DNA of 20,699 nucleotides, taken from IMG/VR virus record IMGVR_UViG_3300046009_007786, positions 1 through 20,699 of that record. One strand, given 5' to 3'. Shown here piece after piece: positions 14,365-20,418 of this stretch. A program made the translations under genes and the position numbers. Source of the stretch: a virus. The notes below the pieces were generated by a model. The model saw only the letters and a program-made list of their open reading frames with translations, did no database searches and was not told the DNA's origin. Position 1 is the first letter of the stretch, and each line of letters opens with the position of its first letter.

Positions 14365-16190
14365 AAGACATTCAAAAAATTAAAGAATTTTTCTCTAAAC
14401 CTTTAGAAGAAGGCACTACAGAATATTTCAAACCCTCAATTCGTAAAGACAAATCCAACCCTAATTTCCTATATGTTGATATAGCTTACCCAGCAGGTTC
14501 AGATGTTTTATCTGTAGGTGGGTCTAAAACTATGGGTGGTCAAGACAGAGAAGAAGGCACTACTAAAGCATTAGCGATGGGTAATATGATTGCTAAAAAA
14601 TTACAAGCAAAATACAATATTGAAGATATTGATGTGAGCGATTTAAAAAATGGCAAAGTAGAAGTATTCGCTGTATCAGATGATTTTATTAAAATGGCTT
14701 CTCCTTCATTAGACGAAGCTAAAAAAGAAACAGCTGTTGACATGGCTAAAAAGCAATTAGATGCTTTAGGTGTTAAATACGAAATGTCAAAAACTGATAA
14801 AGTAAGACCATTTAAAGTAATCTACCAGCCAATTAATAAATCAGATGAATTCTATGATAAATTTGAAGATATTGTTGATTTATTTAACTTAAAAGGTGTT
14901 GTAAAATCATCAATGAGTGAAGTAAAAGAAGAAGATAGCTACGAAGTAGTTTGGACTGATAGAGATTATAAAAAACACTCTAAAGTATTTAAAAATGATC
15001 CTAAAGGTGCTCCTGATAATGCTAAAAAGAAAGCAGAAGCATTTAAAAAATCATTAGAAGATAAAGATAAAAAAAGCAAAGAAGGTTTATATAGATCTAT
15101 TGATTTAAATGAAGCTAAAGAAGATAAAGTAGATACTATTACAATGGATGTTCCTTTGTTTATTCGTATGTTAGAATATTCAAGAGAAGATGCTGCTGAA
15201 GATATGGATTTACATGATGTTACTGAAAAAGCAATTTCATTAGGTAAAGAAAGAGGTATCTTACAAATGGATGATTATGATGAGATTATAGGTACTACTA
15301 AAAAAGTTGATGAAGCAAACGTAACTTGGTCAACACTTCATAGAGATAATGCTAATGAAAAACTCTTAAAACAATCTAAATTATCATCAGCTGAATACCA
15401 AAAAGCTAAAAAATTACAAGGTTTTAAAGCAGATAATTACAAATGGAATACTGATGAAGACTTATATGTTAAAGTAGTTGATGAAGGTATGGGTGGTCAA
15501 TTAGACGAACCATTTTTTATTGAAGTATCAGTTCGCGATGCTCGCAAAGCATTAGATTTATTCGATGATCAATACAGTAAATCAAACATTAAAATGTATG
15601 GTTCTAATGTATACGCAGCTACTACTCCTGAAGATATTTACGATTTATACTATGATTTATCTTCTCAAGACATTGAAATTTTAGATGCTAATATTGAAGA
15701 TGAGGAACTTGATGAAGCAGAATTAACCGAAGCATATGTTCCCTCAAACATTAAAGAATTTGCTAAAAGAAAAGGCGTATCTTCTTTAGTAAATAAAGTA
15801 GCTGGTTGGGCAGAAAAAGTAGGTAAAGGTATTAGAGGTGGAACAGCTATTGGATACAATTATTCTACTCTTATTTTAGATATGACCTACCAAGGTTCAG
15901 AAATCCGTATTAATACAGATAATGATACAATTGAGTTATATGATGAACCTGTTAGAAGCTTTGGTGAATTCCAACGTGTATATTTAGATAATCAGGAAGA
16001 ATCAGATAATGGTTTAGAAGAAAGAATTGCTGAAGCATTAAATAAAATTAACGAGGAACTTTGTCCTGCTGGTAAAGCATACATCAAAAGAAGACAAGCC
16101 GCTGGTGAAAAATCATCTGCATATCTTTCAGGCCGTGGAGTTAAAGTATGCAAAGGACAAATGTCTGGTAAAGCAAAAAAGAAAAAATAA
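14361..16190 (+). CDS. Modular 609-aa phage protein with repeated LxE-A sites and basic Cys-containing C-terminus
   Basis: The protein begins with MKDIQKIKEFFSKPLEEG, a leader with LEE17-G18. Further sites of the T4 prohead-protease type are LDE119-A120, LNE251-A252, LDE452-A453, LTE457-A458 and IAE558-A559. Between them lie distinct segments: about 20-115 (beta-rich with YVDIAYPAGSDVLSVGG), 120-250 (charged), 255-312 (TITMDVPLFIRMLEYSREDA, which I recall as a recurring module in marine phage proteins), 315-450 (alpha/beta), 458-555 and a C-terminal 563-609 piece with C568, C597 and a Lys-rich end (GKAKKKK). It looks like a polyprotein or multi-domain internal head protein; none of the segments has an evident catalytic site. 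It shares a 1-base overlap with the next small basic gene. Confidence 0.6.
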   Translation: MKDIQKIKEFFSKPLEEGTTEYFKPSIRKDKSNPNFLYVDIAYPAGSDVLSVGGSKTMGGQDREEGTTKALAMGNMIAKKLQAKYNIEDIDVSDLKNGKVEVFAVSDDFIKMASPSLDEAKKETAVDMAKKQLDALGVKYEMSKTDKVRPFKVIYQPINKSDEFYDKFEDIVDLFNLKGVVKSSMSEVKEEDSYEVVWTDRDYKKHSKVFKNDPKGAPDNAKKKAEAFKKSLEDKDKKSKEGLYRSIDLNEAKEDKVDTITMDVPLFIRMLEYSREDAAEDMDLHDVTEKAISLGKERGILQMDDYDEIIGTTKKVDEANVTWSTLHRDNANEKLLKQSKLSSAEYQKAKKLQGFKADNYKWNTDEDLYVKVVDEGMGGQLDEPFFIEVSVRDARKALDLFDDQYSKSNIKMYGSNVYAATTPEDIYDLYYDLSSQDIEILDANIEDEELDEAELTEAYVPSNIKEFAKRKGVSSLVNKVAGWAEKVGKGIRGGTAIGYNYSTLILDMTYQGSEIRINTDNDTIELYDEPVRSFGEFQRVYLDNQEESDNGLEERIAEALNKINEELCPAGKAYIKRRQAAGEKSSAYLSGRGVKVCKGQMSGKAKKKK

Positions 16191-16480
16191 TGGATTCAAA
16201 TCGCCTAAAAGAATTAGTATCCGAATCATTACGTGACTGGTTTAAAAAAGAGGACTGGGTGCGTATTGATACACAAGGTAACATTACTGGTCCTTGTGGT
16301 ACTATGAAGAAAGGCGATGCTACCACAAGATGTTTGCCTCGTAAAAAAGCTCAATCATTATCTAAAGCAGAAAGAGCAAAAACCTCCAAGAAAAAAGCTG
16401 CTGCTTCTCGTAAAGGAAAACAATTTGTAAAAAACACAGAAAAGGCAGAGTACAAAAAAGGTACGTATCACAAAAAATAA
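16190..16480 (+). CDS. Small basic Cys-containing phage protein (96 aa)
   Basis: The N-terminal leader MDSNRLKELVSESLRDW is followed by KKEDWVRIDTQGNITGPCG, then TRCLPRKKAQSLSKAERAKT and a Lys/Ser/Ala-rich tail ending in GTYHKK. I recall very similar small proteins with a GPCG...RCLP...SKAERA pattern in many aquatic phages, without known function. The tail is strongly basic, so DNA binding within the head is plausible. The two Cys residues (about 41 and 53) are too few for a classic zinc finger alone. It follows the 609-aa gene with a TAATG overlap and closes its transcription unit, as the next gap has the repeated motif. Confidence 0.65.
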   Translation: MDSNRLKELVSESLRDWFKKEDWVRIDTQGNITGPCGTMKKGDATTRCLPRKKAQSLSKAERAKTSKKKAAASRKGKQFVKNTEKAEYKKGTYHKK

Positions 16481-16507: not shown

Positions 16508-17344
16508 ATGGAAAAATTTAACCTAAAAAAAGCTATATTAGAAAATAAAGCTACTTTCTTTTCTTCATTAAATGAGGGAGATTTAGTAAAAAATATTGGT
16601 AAAGGATTAGAATACGAAGCTACCGAAGAAATGATTCGTGATTATGCCCAACATTTAATGGATGAAGGATCTTATGATGTTGAGGAATTAGCACAATCAT
16701 ACTTAGATATACCCAGATCATTTCCTAGACAATTAGACTACACTTTCTTTAAAAATAACTATGATGATATCTTATCAGTAGCTATGACTGGGTTAGGTGA
16801 AGGTAAAAAAGAATATTATAAAGATGCCGAAGCTGATGATGCTGAACACATTGATGCTTTAGAAAAAGACATGGCAGATGATAAAAAATCAAGCAAAATG
16901 AAAACATCAGAATTAAAAGCTAAAATCAAAGAAATGGTTTTAGCAGAAATGGCTCTAGACGTAGATAACATGGAAGATGCTCCTGAATCTGAAGTTGATT
17001 TCCTATCAGAAGTAGATGCTATTTTAGCTGAAGCTGACGAAGAAGTAGCAGTAGATGATACTGAAGTAGCAGTTGGTGGTGAAGAAAATATTGATGTTGA
17101 TACAACAACTGAAGTAGATCCTAATGTAAAAGCAGTACAAGATGCTTTAACACAAGCTCAAGCAGCTGCTCAAAAATTAGGCGATCCTAAATTAACAGAT
17201 CAAATTGGTAACACAATTACATTCTTTACTCGTGCACACGTAGTTGATAAAGGTGCTGTAGCTGAAGCTGACGAAATGGAAGAAGGTAAAACAGAAGATT
17301 TAAATGAATCTATGTTCCCAATGTTAAAAAGAATTATAAAATAA
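16508..17344 (+). CDS. Acidic protein with LxE sites, possible scaffold or internal head protein
   Basis: This 278-residue protein starts with MEKFNLKKAILENKATFFSS and carries LNE23-G24, LGE98-G99, LAE175-A176 and LNE267-S268. Residues about 30-95 look like a small helical domain (EMIRDYAQHLMDEGSYDVEE). The middle (105-210) is highly acidic and low in complexity, with EVAVDDTEVAVGGEENIDVD. Residues 205-250 are an Ala/Gln-rich helix. The C-terminal peptide SMFPMLKRIIK after the last LNE is short, hydrophobic and basic, like a peptide left after cleavage. Acidity, helices and protease-type sites recall head scaffold or core proteins of T4-like phages, but no clear homologue comes to mind. It heads a transcription unit after the repeated motif. 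Confidence 0.6.
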   Translation: MEKFNLKKAILENKATFFSSLNEGDLVKNIGKGLEYEATEEMIRDYAQHLMDEGSYDVEELAQSYLDIPRSFPRQLDYTFFKNNYDDILSVAMTGLGEGKKEYYKDAEADDAEHIDALEKDMADDKKSSKMKTSELKAKIKEMVLAEMALDVDNMEDAPESEVDFLSEVDAILAEADEEVAVDDTEVAVGGEENIDVDTTTEVDPNVKAVQDALTQAQAAAQKLGDPKLTDQIGNTITFFTRAHVVDKGAVAEADEMEEGKTEDLNESMFPMLKRIIK

Positions 17345-17350
17345 AAGTAT

Positions 17351-17521
17351 ATGAACACACAAGAAATTTTCGAAAAAATTGAAGCTTTATACGAATCATT
17401 TAAAGCAGAACACGCTGGAAAATCAAAAGCTGCTCATGGTCGCGCTCGCAAAGCATTAGGTGAAATCAAGAAATTGGTTACCGAATACAGAAAAGCGTCA
17501 ATCGATGAAGACAAAAAGTAA
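17351..17521 (+). CDS. Histone H1-like (Hc1-type) small protein (56 aa)
   Basis: The short frame from ATG 17351 to TAA 17519-17521 encodes 56 residues. Its second half, GKSKAAHGRARKALGEIKKL followed by VTEYRKASI, follows the pattern of Hc1-type histone H1-like proteins: a small G(N/K)xKAA stretch, RxR(K), then xYRKxSI, as I recall from Chlamydia HctA and the ~57-aa proteins common in Bacteroidota. These proteins bind and compact DNA. The length fits the Bacteroidota form, without the long Lys-rich tail of HctA. The gene begins 6 bases after the acidic protein's stop and overlaps the next start (17505) by 17 bases. It may bind phage DNA in the head or host DNA early in infection. The absence of an LxE leader sets it apart from its neighbours. 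Confidence 0.7.
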   Translation: MNTQEIFEKIEALYESFKAEHAGKSKAAHGRARKALGEIKKLVTEYRKASIDEDKK

Positions 17522-18824
17522 TTTGACTGAAAAAAAGCTTACCAAAGCTGAATTAGAAGCAAGAGAAAAAGTAATGAAGGACTTGAAGAAAAACAAGTCC
17601 GCTCTTGTTAAACGCTACGGCAAAGATGCCGAAGCAGTTATGTATGGACGTGCAACAAATATAGCTAAAAAAATGGCAGAATCAGAAAATAAAAATCGCA
17701 TTAAAGAGCTTGTTAGAAAATCTCTTATGCAGGAAGCCGATATCGAAGTTGGTGCTGACAAGTACGAAGAAGAAGAAAAATTAACACAAGCATCTTCAAT
17801 GTTAGATGATTTAGAAACTAAATTGAGCCGTCACGATTGGTTCTACATGATGTCTGATGATTCAAACAAATATAGTCAAGGTTCAGCTAAAGAAAGAGAA
17901 ATTCGTGATTTAATTTCTAAATTAGAATCTATGGGCTACGGAAAAGAAGCAAAAGATATGTACAATGAAAAAGAACCATATTCAAGATCTTTTAGTCGTG
18001 ATTCTAAATTAAAAGAAGCCAAAGGTAAAGACATGGACAAAGATGGCGATATCGATTCAGACGATTACTTAGCTGCTCGCGATGCTGCTATTAAAAAAGC
18101 AAAAGGTGAAATGAAAGAAGATTTAGATTTAGGTCACGAAGATAACGAACCACATATGATTAAAGCCGAACTATATCGTATTGGAAAATATGCTATGGAA
18201 TTATACCAAATGGTAGACGGATTTGAAGGTAAAGGTGAGGTTGATTTCCCGGGTTGGTGGCAGTCAAAAATTACCAAAGCACAAGAAATGATGGTTTCAG
18301 CTAAACATTACTTAGACTTTGAATTAAAAGAACCAGCTATTGATGCTATGGTGGGTGTTGCCTCTGATGAAGAAATACTTGATGATGAAGCTCCAATGAT
18401 GGAATCAGCTTATGATTATGTAAAAACTCCTAAAGAATATGTTGCTTTACAATTGTCTGATTTTTTTAGAGTTCCTAAAGACAAATTAATGTCTTTTAAT
18501 TTAGATGGTACTGATAATATTGATGCTTTAACAAAAGCTTTAAATTCAACCTCAAATCAAGGTACAGAAATGTATTTAAAAATGTCTATGAAATCTGCTC
18601 AAGAACATTTTGATTCATCAATGATGAATGAAGATGAAGTAACTAAAGTAGATAAATTAGCTGCTGCTATTCAAAAAGCTTTAAACAAAAATAAATCAGC
18701 TGAAGATCAAAACAATATCAAACAAGCTAGAAAAGCTATGAATGATGGTAATATAGAAGCTGCTAAAAAAATCTTAAACCCATATTTAGCAGAAAAATTA
18801 GCTAAACAGTTAAAGTCTAAATAA
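17505..18824 (+). CDS. EF-hand-containing phage protein with LxE sites (439 aa)
   Basis: I place the start at ATG 17505 rather than the upstream in-frame GTG at 17460, because the latter lies deep in the histone-like gene and the residues after 17505 (MKTKSNLTEKKLTKAELEAR) look like a normal phage leader with LTE9. Residues 10-60 are basic and helical. A perfect EF-hand loop, DMDKDGDIDSDD, occupies residues 176-187 and is followed by YLAARDAAIKKA; it should bind calcium. LKE171-A172 lies just before it and MQE77-A78 near residue 77. Residues about 205-300 are helical (IKAELYRIGKYAMELYQMV), and 395-439 form a helical, Lys-rich end. I recall similar EF-hand segments in aquatic phage proteins. 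An internal head protein is likely but unproven. Confidence 0.65.
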   Translation: MKTKSNLTEKKLTKAELEAREKVMKDLKKNKSALVKRYGKDAEAVMYGRATNIAKKMAESENKNRIKELVRKSLMQEADIEVGADKYEEEEKLTQASSMLDDLETKLSRHDWFYMMSDDSNKYSQGSAKEREIRDLISKLESMGYGKEAKDMYNEKEPYSRSFSRDSKLKEAKGKDMDKDGDIDSDDYLAARDAAIKKAKGEMKEDLDLGHEDNEPHMIKAELYRIGKYAMELYQMVDGFEGKGEVDFPGWWQSKITKAQEMMVSAKHYLDFELKEPAIDAMVGVASDEEILDDEAPMMESAYDYVKTPKEYVALQLSDFFRVPKDKLMSFNLDGTDNIDALTKALNSTSNQGTEMYLKMSMKSAQEHFDSSMMNEDEVTKVDKLAAAIQKALNKNKSAEDQNNIKQARKAMNDGNIEAAKKILNPYLAEKLAKQLKSK

Positions 18825-19299: not shown

Positions 19300-20418
19300 A
19301 TGAAAGTATTTGATAAACTTATCAAAGAAATTTTTTACAAATTTCCAAAAGGATATCTTGATGTAAATGATACTCAAGATGTTCTTTTTTTTCAATCGAT
19401 ATTAGAGTCGATGGGAGTTGAACTTTATGAAGCTATATTAATTAATGAAGCGGCTGAAGATATTAAAAATGAACTCATTGATGCCGGATATACTCCCGAA
19501 GATATTGTCATAAAAAGTAGTAAACAAATTCGTTTATTAACTAAAGGAGCTGAACGTAAATCTACAATGGATAAATTGTTAAAAGATTTAGAAGGTTCAC
19601 GTTACGATATAAATTTTAAAGGTTCATCTTTAGGTGCTATTATAGCGGATGATGGTACGGCAATTATTGTTAAACCAAAAGAAAGACAAGGTGGTTTATC
19701 TGCTGGTTTAGATAACGAACAAATGCTTGTAGATAGTATAAACCAATACGCTCAAGATGGTCCAATCAACATCAGATTTAAAGGAACAAACAAATCTTTA
19801 TCTTACAATGATGTTGTTTCAGCTAAATCTGTAGGTACAGATACAGCCGGTGGAAAAAAAGCAGACGTTCAATTATTAGATAAAAGCGGTAGTGTTATAG
19901 CAAATATTTCTCTTAAAAAAGCAAATGCTGAAATGTGGGAAAGTGCTGATAGACGTTATAAAAATTTAATGCTTAAATTATCTGAAAAACTTTTAGATAG
20001 TCCATTCCCAAATGTTGCTTTAAGAACAACAGATAAAAAAGATATCTATCGTTTATATAACCCTGAAACAGGAACAGATTTAGGAGGTCTTGTAATTACA
20101 GACTTACCAGACAATGAAAATGAATCTATTGTATTTGGTACTGATAATCCAAAAACAATAGTTATTAAACATACATTCCAACCTTCAGACTTTAGCTTTA
20201 ATAAATCTATATTAACTATAGATTCAGGTACTATCTTTACTGATTTAAAAGATATTGAAGGAACAAAATACGAACCTATTTTAGTAATCAGACACGATGT
20301 GACTCGTACTGCAACTAATGGTTTACGTCCTATTGTATATAATGCTTCACATGCTTATAAAGACGGTAAACTTGCTGGCGGTAGACAAGAGTTAACGTAT
20401 GCTGATGCTATTAAATAA
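19300..20418 (+). CDS. PD-(D/E)XK-like nuclease candidate (372 aa)
   Basis: The leader MKVFDKLIKEIF has IKE10, and INE50-A51 (ILINEAAED) is a second protease-type site. Residues about 50-130 form an alpha/beta domain (ELIDAGYTPEDIVI, GAIIADDGTAIIVKPKE). Residues 135-210 have the order of a restriction-type PD-(D/E)XK fold: E140 in GLDNEQMLVDSI, D189 in GGKKADVQLLD and S204-L-K206 in ANISLKKANA, where the usual (D/E)xK is replaced by SxK. Related phage proteins with ISLKK motifs are, to my recollection, nuclease-fold proteins. The C-terminal part (about 230-372) is alpha/beta of unknown function. The substrate could be DNA, including host DNA if delivered from the capsid. Nuclease activity is uncertain because of the altered motif. 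Confidence 0.55.
   Translation: MKVFDKLIKEIFYKFPKGYLDVNDTQDVLFFQSILESMGVELYEAILINEAAEDIKNELIDAGYTPEDIVIKSSKQIRLLTKGAERKSTMDKLLKDLEGSRYDINFKGSSLGAIIADDGTAIIVKPKERQGGLSAGLDNEQMLVDSINQYAQDGPINIRFKGTNKSLSYNDVVSAKSVGTDTAGGKKADVQLLDKSGSVIANISLKKANAEMWESADRRYKNLMLKLSEKLLDSPFPNVALRTTDKKDIYRLYNPETGTDLGGLVITDLPDNENESIVFGTDNPKTIVIKHTFQPSDFSFNKSILTIDSGTIFTDLKDIEGTKYEPILVIRHDVTRTATNGLRPIVYNASHAYKDGKLAGGRQELTYADAIK

Follow-up and report, generated by a model that had tools for sequence, protein, structure and literature searches.

The window, the whole stretch of 20,699 nucleotides (positions 1 to 20,699 of IMG/VR virus record IMGVR_UViG_3300046009_007786), carries a small open reading frame, here called hc1, that begins with an ATG at position 17351 and ends with a TAA at 17521 (56 codons). 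The features of the locus are the following.

16508..17344, plus strand: upstream neighbour, an acidic protein of 278 amino acids (net charge -37) that recurs 5' of hc1 in loci arranged as in the window.
17351..17521, plus strand: hc1-like gene encoding 56 amino acids, an ORF whose PF07432 (Hc1) domain spans the whole protein, with viral homologues and under purifying selection.
17357..17413, plus strand: helix 1 (residues 3-21) of the AlphaFold model, rich in acidic residues (residues 1-22 have a charge of -3).
17426..17515, plus strand: helix 2 (residues 26-55) of the AlphaFold model, with a conserved basic face opposite the hydrophobic face.
17426..17452, plus strand: family motif KAAHGRARK (residues 26-34), with K26, A27, R31, A32, R33 and K34 invariant.
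17486..17503, plus strand: family motif YRKASI (residues 46-51), with S50 invariant and R47 and K48 at least 90% conserved.
17505..17521, plus strand: overlap of 17 bases between the end of hc1 and the start of the next ORF (ATG at 17505), from ORF calls and locus comparison.
17505..18824, plus strand: downstream neighbour, a protein with an EF-hand-type loop, DMDKDGDIDSDD, recognized by eye.

The sequence-only reading of this DNA had placed the 56-amino acid product in the Hc1 family, and the profile search that it proposed bore this out, because the protein matched PF07432 in the Pfam search with an E value of 2.2e-10 and a score of 40.7 bits, where the curated gathering cut-off is 23.5 bits, and covered the full model (positions 2-57 of 57). 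The pattern that had led to that assignment, KAAxxRxRK followed by YRKxSI, is present and conserved, and its KAAxxRxRK and YRKxS core is common to the window protein and the cellular members; in an alignment of 41 phage and cellular sequences, nine residues were invariant. The length of the protein, described earlier as typical of Bacteroidota versions, also agrees with that of the sampled cellular copies. We consider it practically certain that the window protein is a member of the Hc1 (PF07432) family. An HU/IHF identity was discarded, since PF00216 was not one of the families that the Pfam search returned for the protein; NCBIfam provided nothing usable for it, and the PHROGs phage library contained no significant match.

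A first scan of IMG/VR provided 234 confirmed viral relatives of hc1, and an alignment-based scan located relatives on at least 561 IMG/VR stretches, with a single copy per contig in 12 of 12 phage contigs. The median dN/dS over 64 distinct phage hc1 genes was about 0.10-0.12, which indicates that the gene is under purifying selection. The Pfam match, the hundreds of viral relatives and the low dN/dS rule out a chance ORF, and the 56-amino acid phage protein is real and strongly conserved.

AlphaFold, provided with 41 homologues, predicted a helical hairpin formed by residues 3-21 and 26-55 (pLDDT 96.8), and an identical helical arrangement was predicted for a Flavobacterium chromosomal homologue (pLDDT 96.5), so that the two-helix hairpin is a predicted trait common to the phage protein and a cellular member. 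Because the model contains two helices and no strands, an identity as a eukaryotic linker histone H1 or another winged-helix protein was rejected. The PF07432 proteins of moraphages have been compared with the H1 of medusavirus and eukaryotes (PMC12619734), a comparison that does not fit this predicted model. Solved structures provided no match to the protein by sequence profile, and a fold search provided none at E 0.001 or better; the weak, nonsignificant fold matches included small hairpin proteins such as SSV1 D-63 and Aqs1, and LSD1 and ribosomal hairpins were set aside as generic hits without significance. The best match in BFVD, a protein from an uncultured virus, bears the name "Histone H1" (TM 0.92, E 0.1).

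The window protein terminates where the PF07432 model ends, i.e. with the hairpin. According to the chlamydial literature, the conserved N terminus of Hc1 mediates dimerisation (PMC2848022), and DNA is bound by its lysine-rich C terminus (PMC2848022; PMC3469542). Judging by its name and its 57-position model, PF07432 should correspond to the N-terminal dimerisation domain of its namesake, chlamydial Hc1/HctA; in contrast, the lysine-rich C-terminal DNA-binding domain that HctA adds is missing from the window protein, a comparison in which HctA was taken from its description. A lysine-rich tail was equally absent from 91 of 91 copies of the phage set (55-62 amino acids; the set counts the chromosomal copies L087 and L088) and from 91 of 91 copies of the cellular set (47-59 amino acids), and the net charge of the Hc1-family copies has a median of +3, with the window protein at about +3. 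The earlier description of a DNA-compacting, histone H1-like protein therefore stands for the family and is not borne out for the function, since only the N-terminal type of domain is present; the label of a DNA-compacting histone exceeds the evidence. DNA compaction by the phage protein may be supposed, but it is not transferable from chlamydial Hc1 because the phage protein lacks the tail. The "histone H1-like" family name itself stems from a tail that the sampled phage and cellular copies do not have.

The gene order of the window is shared with Flavobacterium phage immuto and comprises tail genes, an NAD-synthetase-like gene, and primase, exonuclease, adenylyltransferase and 5'-nucleotidase genes, with protein identities of about 28-73%. 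In immuto the same block continues into terL, portal gp20, prohead protease and major capsid gp23. In the four relatives with enough sequence to place hc1 with respect to the head genes (L173, L174, L176 and L177), the gene precedes the terL, portal, prohead protease and capsid genes by about 3-10 kb, in agreement with the late head-gene block that had been suspected. Two arrangements were observed, one with hc1 between the acidic and EF-hand-loop genes, as in the window, and a second with hc1 closer to terL, with an oxidoreductase-like gene often following it. The head-gene context is not universal, because in immuto (L082, 16036-18174) hc1 comes directly after the phage groES and groEL genes and far from the head genes. 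The carrier of hc1 is best explained as a T4-like myovirus related to immuto with a Bacteroidota-like host. Late expression of hc1 in the window lineage is likely, judging by its position; the T4-type late promoter TATAAATA showed five matches versus 4.1 expected, with none on the plus strand.

The sequence-only reading had also described hc1 as nested between an acidic and an EF-hand protein. The acidic neighbour and the loop DMDKDGDIDSDD are indeed there, but no Pfam family matches the downstream protein (17505-18824). A functional tie of hc1 to these two genes was rejected as a rule, since other relatives have other neighbours. The reported 17-base overlap is real, the ATG at 17505 lying inside hc1, and is conserved among close relatives only: of the 88 loci in which a downstream ORF was scored, 14 keep it, and all 14 are close relatives. 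A TTG at 17523 provides an alternative, overlap-free start for the next ORF, and in other window-type loci this ORF starts between 20 bases inside hc1 and a few bases past its stop. Tight packing of genes and translational coupling are the probable reasons for the overlap.

A nucleic-acid role of the predicted hairpin would find its main support in the conserved basic face of helix 2. Eight basic positions, all of them in helix 2, are present in at least 90% of the sequences and point mostly away from the hydrophobic side; residues K26, R33, K34, K41, R47, K48 and K55 make up the basic face. Conservation affected 8 of 13 K/R positions versus 9 of 43 other positions (Fisher p 0.013), and the one-sided clustering of basic positions on helix 2 gave permutation p values of 0.027 and 0.004, all of them modest values from tests picked after viewing the alignment.

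This conserved face argues against the view that the protein is a helical-hairpin adaptor without any nucleic-acid role, which would bind another protein (e.g. in head assembly or chaperoning) and bear a histone label of historical value only. Such an adaptor would be in agreement with the low net charge and the missing tail, with dimerisation as the reported job of the chlamydial domain, with the location of the immuto gene beside groEL/groES and with the presence of SSV1 D-63 and Aqs1 among the weak fold matches. However, these fold matches lack significance, and no partner gene is conserved, since the neighbours vary between arrangements. We regard the adaptor as improbable.

The phylogeny that had been proposed showed that the main phage copies group together and that their nearest cellular kin are from Marinimicrobiota and not from Bacteroidota. 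The phage clade proper consists of 57 rows (support 92/84) inside a group of 59 (100/92) that adds the chromosomal copies L087 and L088, placements that are rough because the Hc1 tree is based on few alignment columns. L087 is titled Neomarinimicrobiota, and L088, which carries typA and a coxB-like gene (cytochrome c oxidase subunit II), looks chromosomal and Marinimicrobiota-like. These two copies are 50-60% identical to the phage proteins and are the closest cellular kin of the phage clade, from which they differ in their chromosomal context; Flavobacteriaceae copies come next. The tail-less PF07432 proteins of Bacteroidota chromosomes resemble the phage protein in family, length (57-60 amino acids), median charge (+3) and predicted hairpin, but they are about 42-53% identical to it, their inter-helix loop is slightly longer, and they show KAAGA where the phage copies show KAAHG. 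In the short flanks available, chromosomal Hc1 genes shared no conserved neighbours of note. The immuto and LR745206.1 copies fall within the main phage clade, and the Lak and S-SRM01 copies branch elsewhere, which suggests that phages probably acquired hc1 more than once. The phage version of hc1 also occurs on L086, together with the EF-hand-loop gene and the genes downstream of it. This contig was assigned to a Candidatus Pelagibacter MAG, probably by a binning error, and would be phage DNA; the MAG holds a second PF07432 match.

To have called hc1 the best host clue of the window was too strong. As far as sequence comparison goes, the gene is a moderate clue that points to Bacteroidota or Marinimicrobiota, and the synteny with immuto, together with identities of roughly 42-73% for several proteins, is the better clue; a Bacteroidota host appears more likely than a Marinimicrobiota host because of the kinship with immuto.

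An Hc1-family gene is present in 87 of 148 sampled genomes from the phylum of F. johnsoniae, and the phage and host proteins have the fold and the conserved core in common. These observations, together with the dimerisation of the matching chlamydial domain, would be consistent with a takeover of the host nucleoid in which the phage protein either joins the tail-less host Hc1 in common assemblies or displaces it, and alters nucleoid structure or transcription. Nevertheless, in the window lineage hc1 sits with late head genes and not with early genes, and the phage and Flavobacterium copies are so far apart in sequence that hetero-association is a guess. We consider such a takeover unlikely, and the more specific proposal that mixed assemblies with host Hc1 turn the nucleoid over to late transcription or packaging of the phage is more doubtful still; if true, it would be a takeover of the nucleoid through a borrowed histone-family subunit.

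The reading that we favour, with a probability somewhat short of even, is that of a late-made, self-associating hairpin that would touch nucleic acid through helix 2 and act as a minor nucleoid protein. Two or more hairpins may associate via their hydrophobic faces, as the corresponding N-terminal domain of Hc1 from Chlamydia reportedly does, and helix 2 would contact nucleic acid with its conserved basic face; the one-chain models and helix wheels behind this proposal cannot reveal dimerisation or DNA contact. Late in infection, at about the time of replication and packaging, the protein might thus behave as a small nucleoid-associated protein, with replicated phage DNA before packaging, or the leftover host nucleoid, as its possible target. 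A nucleoid protein is suggested by the full-length PF07432 match, the confident hairpins, the conserved basic face, the low dN/dS, the proximity to head genes and the chlamydial Hc1 literature, as well as by the fact that no HU/IHF (PF00216) was detected in eight related phage records, the complete immuto genome included. The absence of a tail, a net charge of only +3, the lack of a solved-structure match by sequence and of any fold match at E 0.001, and the location of the immuto gene away from the head block count against it. Terminases are commonly assumed to remove proteins from the DNA that they package. That the late-made protein enters the head, and packs the genome or is injected with it, is quite unlikely, and so is its presence inside virions, because the terminase effect, the missing lysine-rich tail, the remoteness of the immuto gene from head genes and the fact that virion proteomics were not found outweigh its location in the late head region and the compaction during packaging proposed in PMC12619734.

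Similar phage Hc1 genes and the packaging idea are already published. PF07432 proteins were described in 2025 in four complete genomes of moraphages, jumbo phages of Bacteroidota, and DNA compaction during packaging was proposed for them (PMC12619734). Like the window, the moraphages have a phage-borne PF07432 protein and predicted hosts that are mostly Bacteroidota (PMC12619734), but they are a separate jumbo-phage lineage, likened to the window here by description and not by sequence. Four other phage groups also match PF07432, namely immuto (exactly at the cut-off), Synechococcus phage S-SRM01, whose gene is already annotated "histone H1", Lak phages and LR745206.1. The present analysis adds that every phage and cellular copy sampled lacks the tail, that hc1 lies in the head region and that such genes are widespread; they are common in viruses, strongly constrained and yet missed by PHROGs. 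The literature searched contained no experiments on phage Hc1-family genes; testing one phage copy would reveal the function of the hairpin alone, both in phages and in the many Bacteroidota with the same tail-less protein, and immuto and its host, Flavobacterium sp. LMO8, provide a cultivable system.

Some other proteins of the window may be mentioned. A 96-amino acid protein (16190-16480; net charge +16, lysine-rich in its second half) is about 91% identical across the block and matches phrog_23735, of unknown function; its charge is more histone-like than that of the Hc1 protein. Large myoviruses, Vibrio phage KVP40 among them, encode relatives about 30% identical to a phrog_12709 protein of the window (19300-20418). 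Finally, many ORFs between 9849 and 20600 open with a short amphipathic stretch (MKLTDLLNEVE, MIGLISLLKEIE, MNFLTKVLLEDLLEAE, MYKLTDLYKQLKEE, MDSNRLKELVSESL and MTKSELRDKIKVLV), which to the eye recalls the capsid-targeting propeptides of T4.
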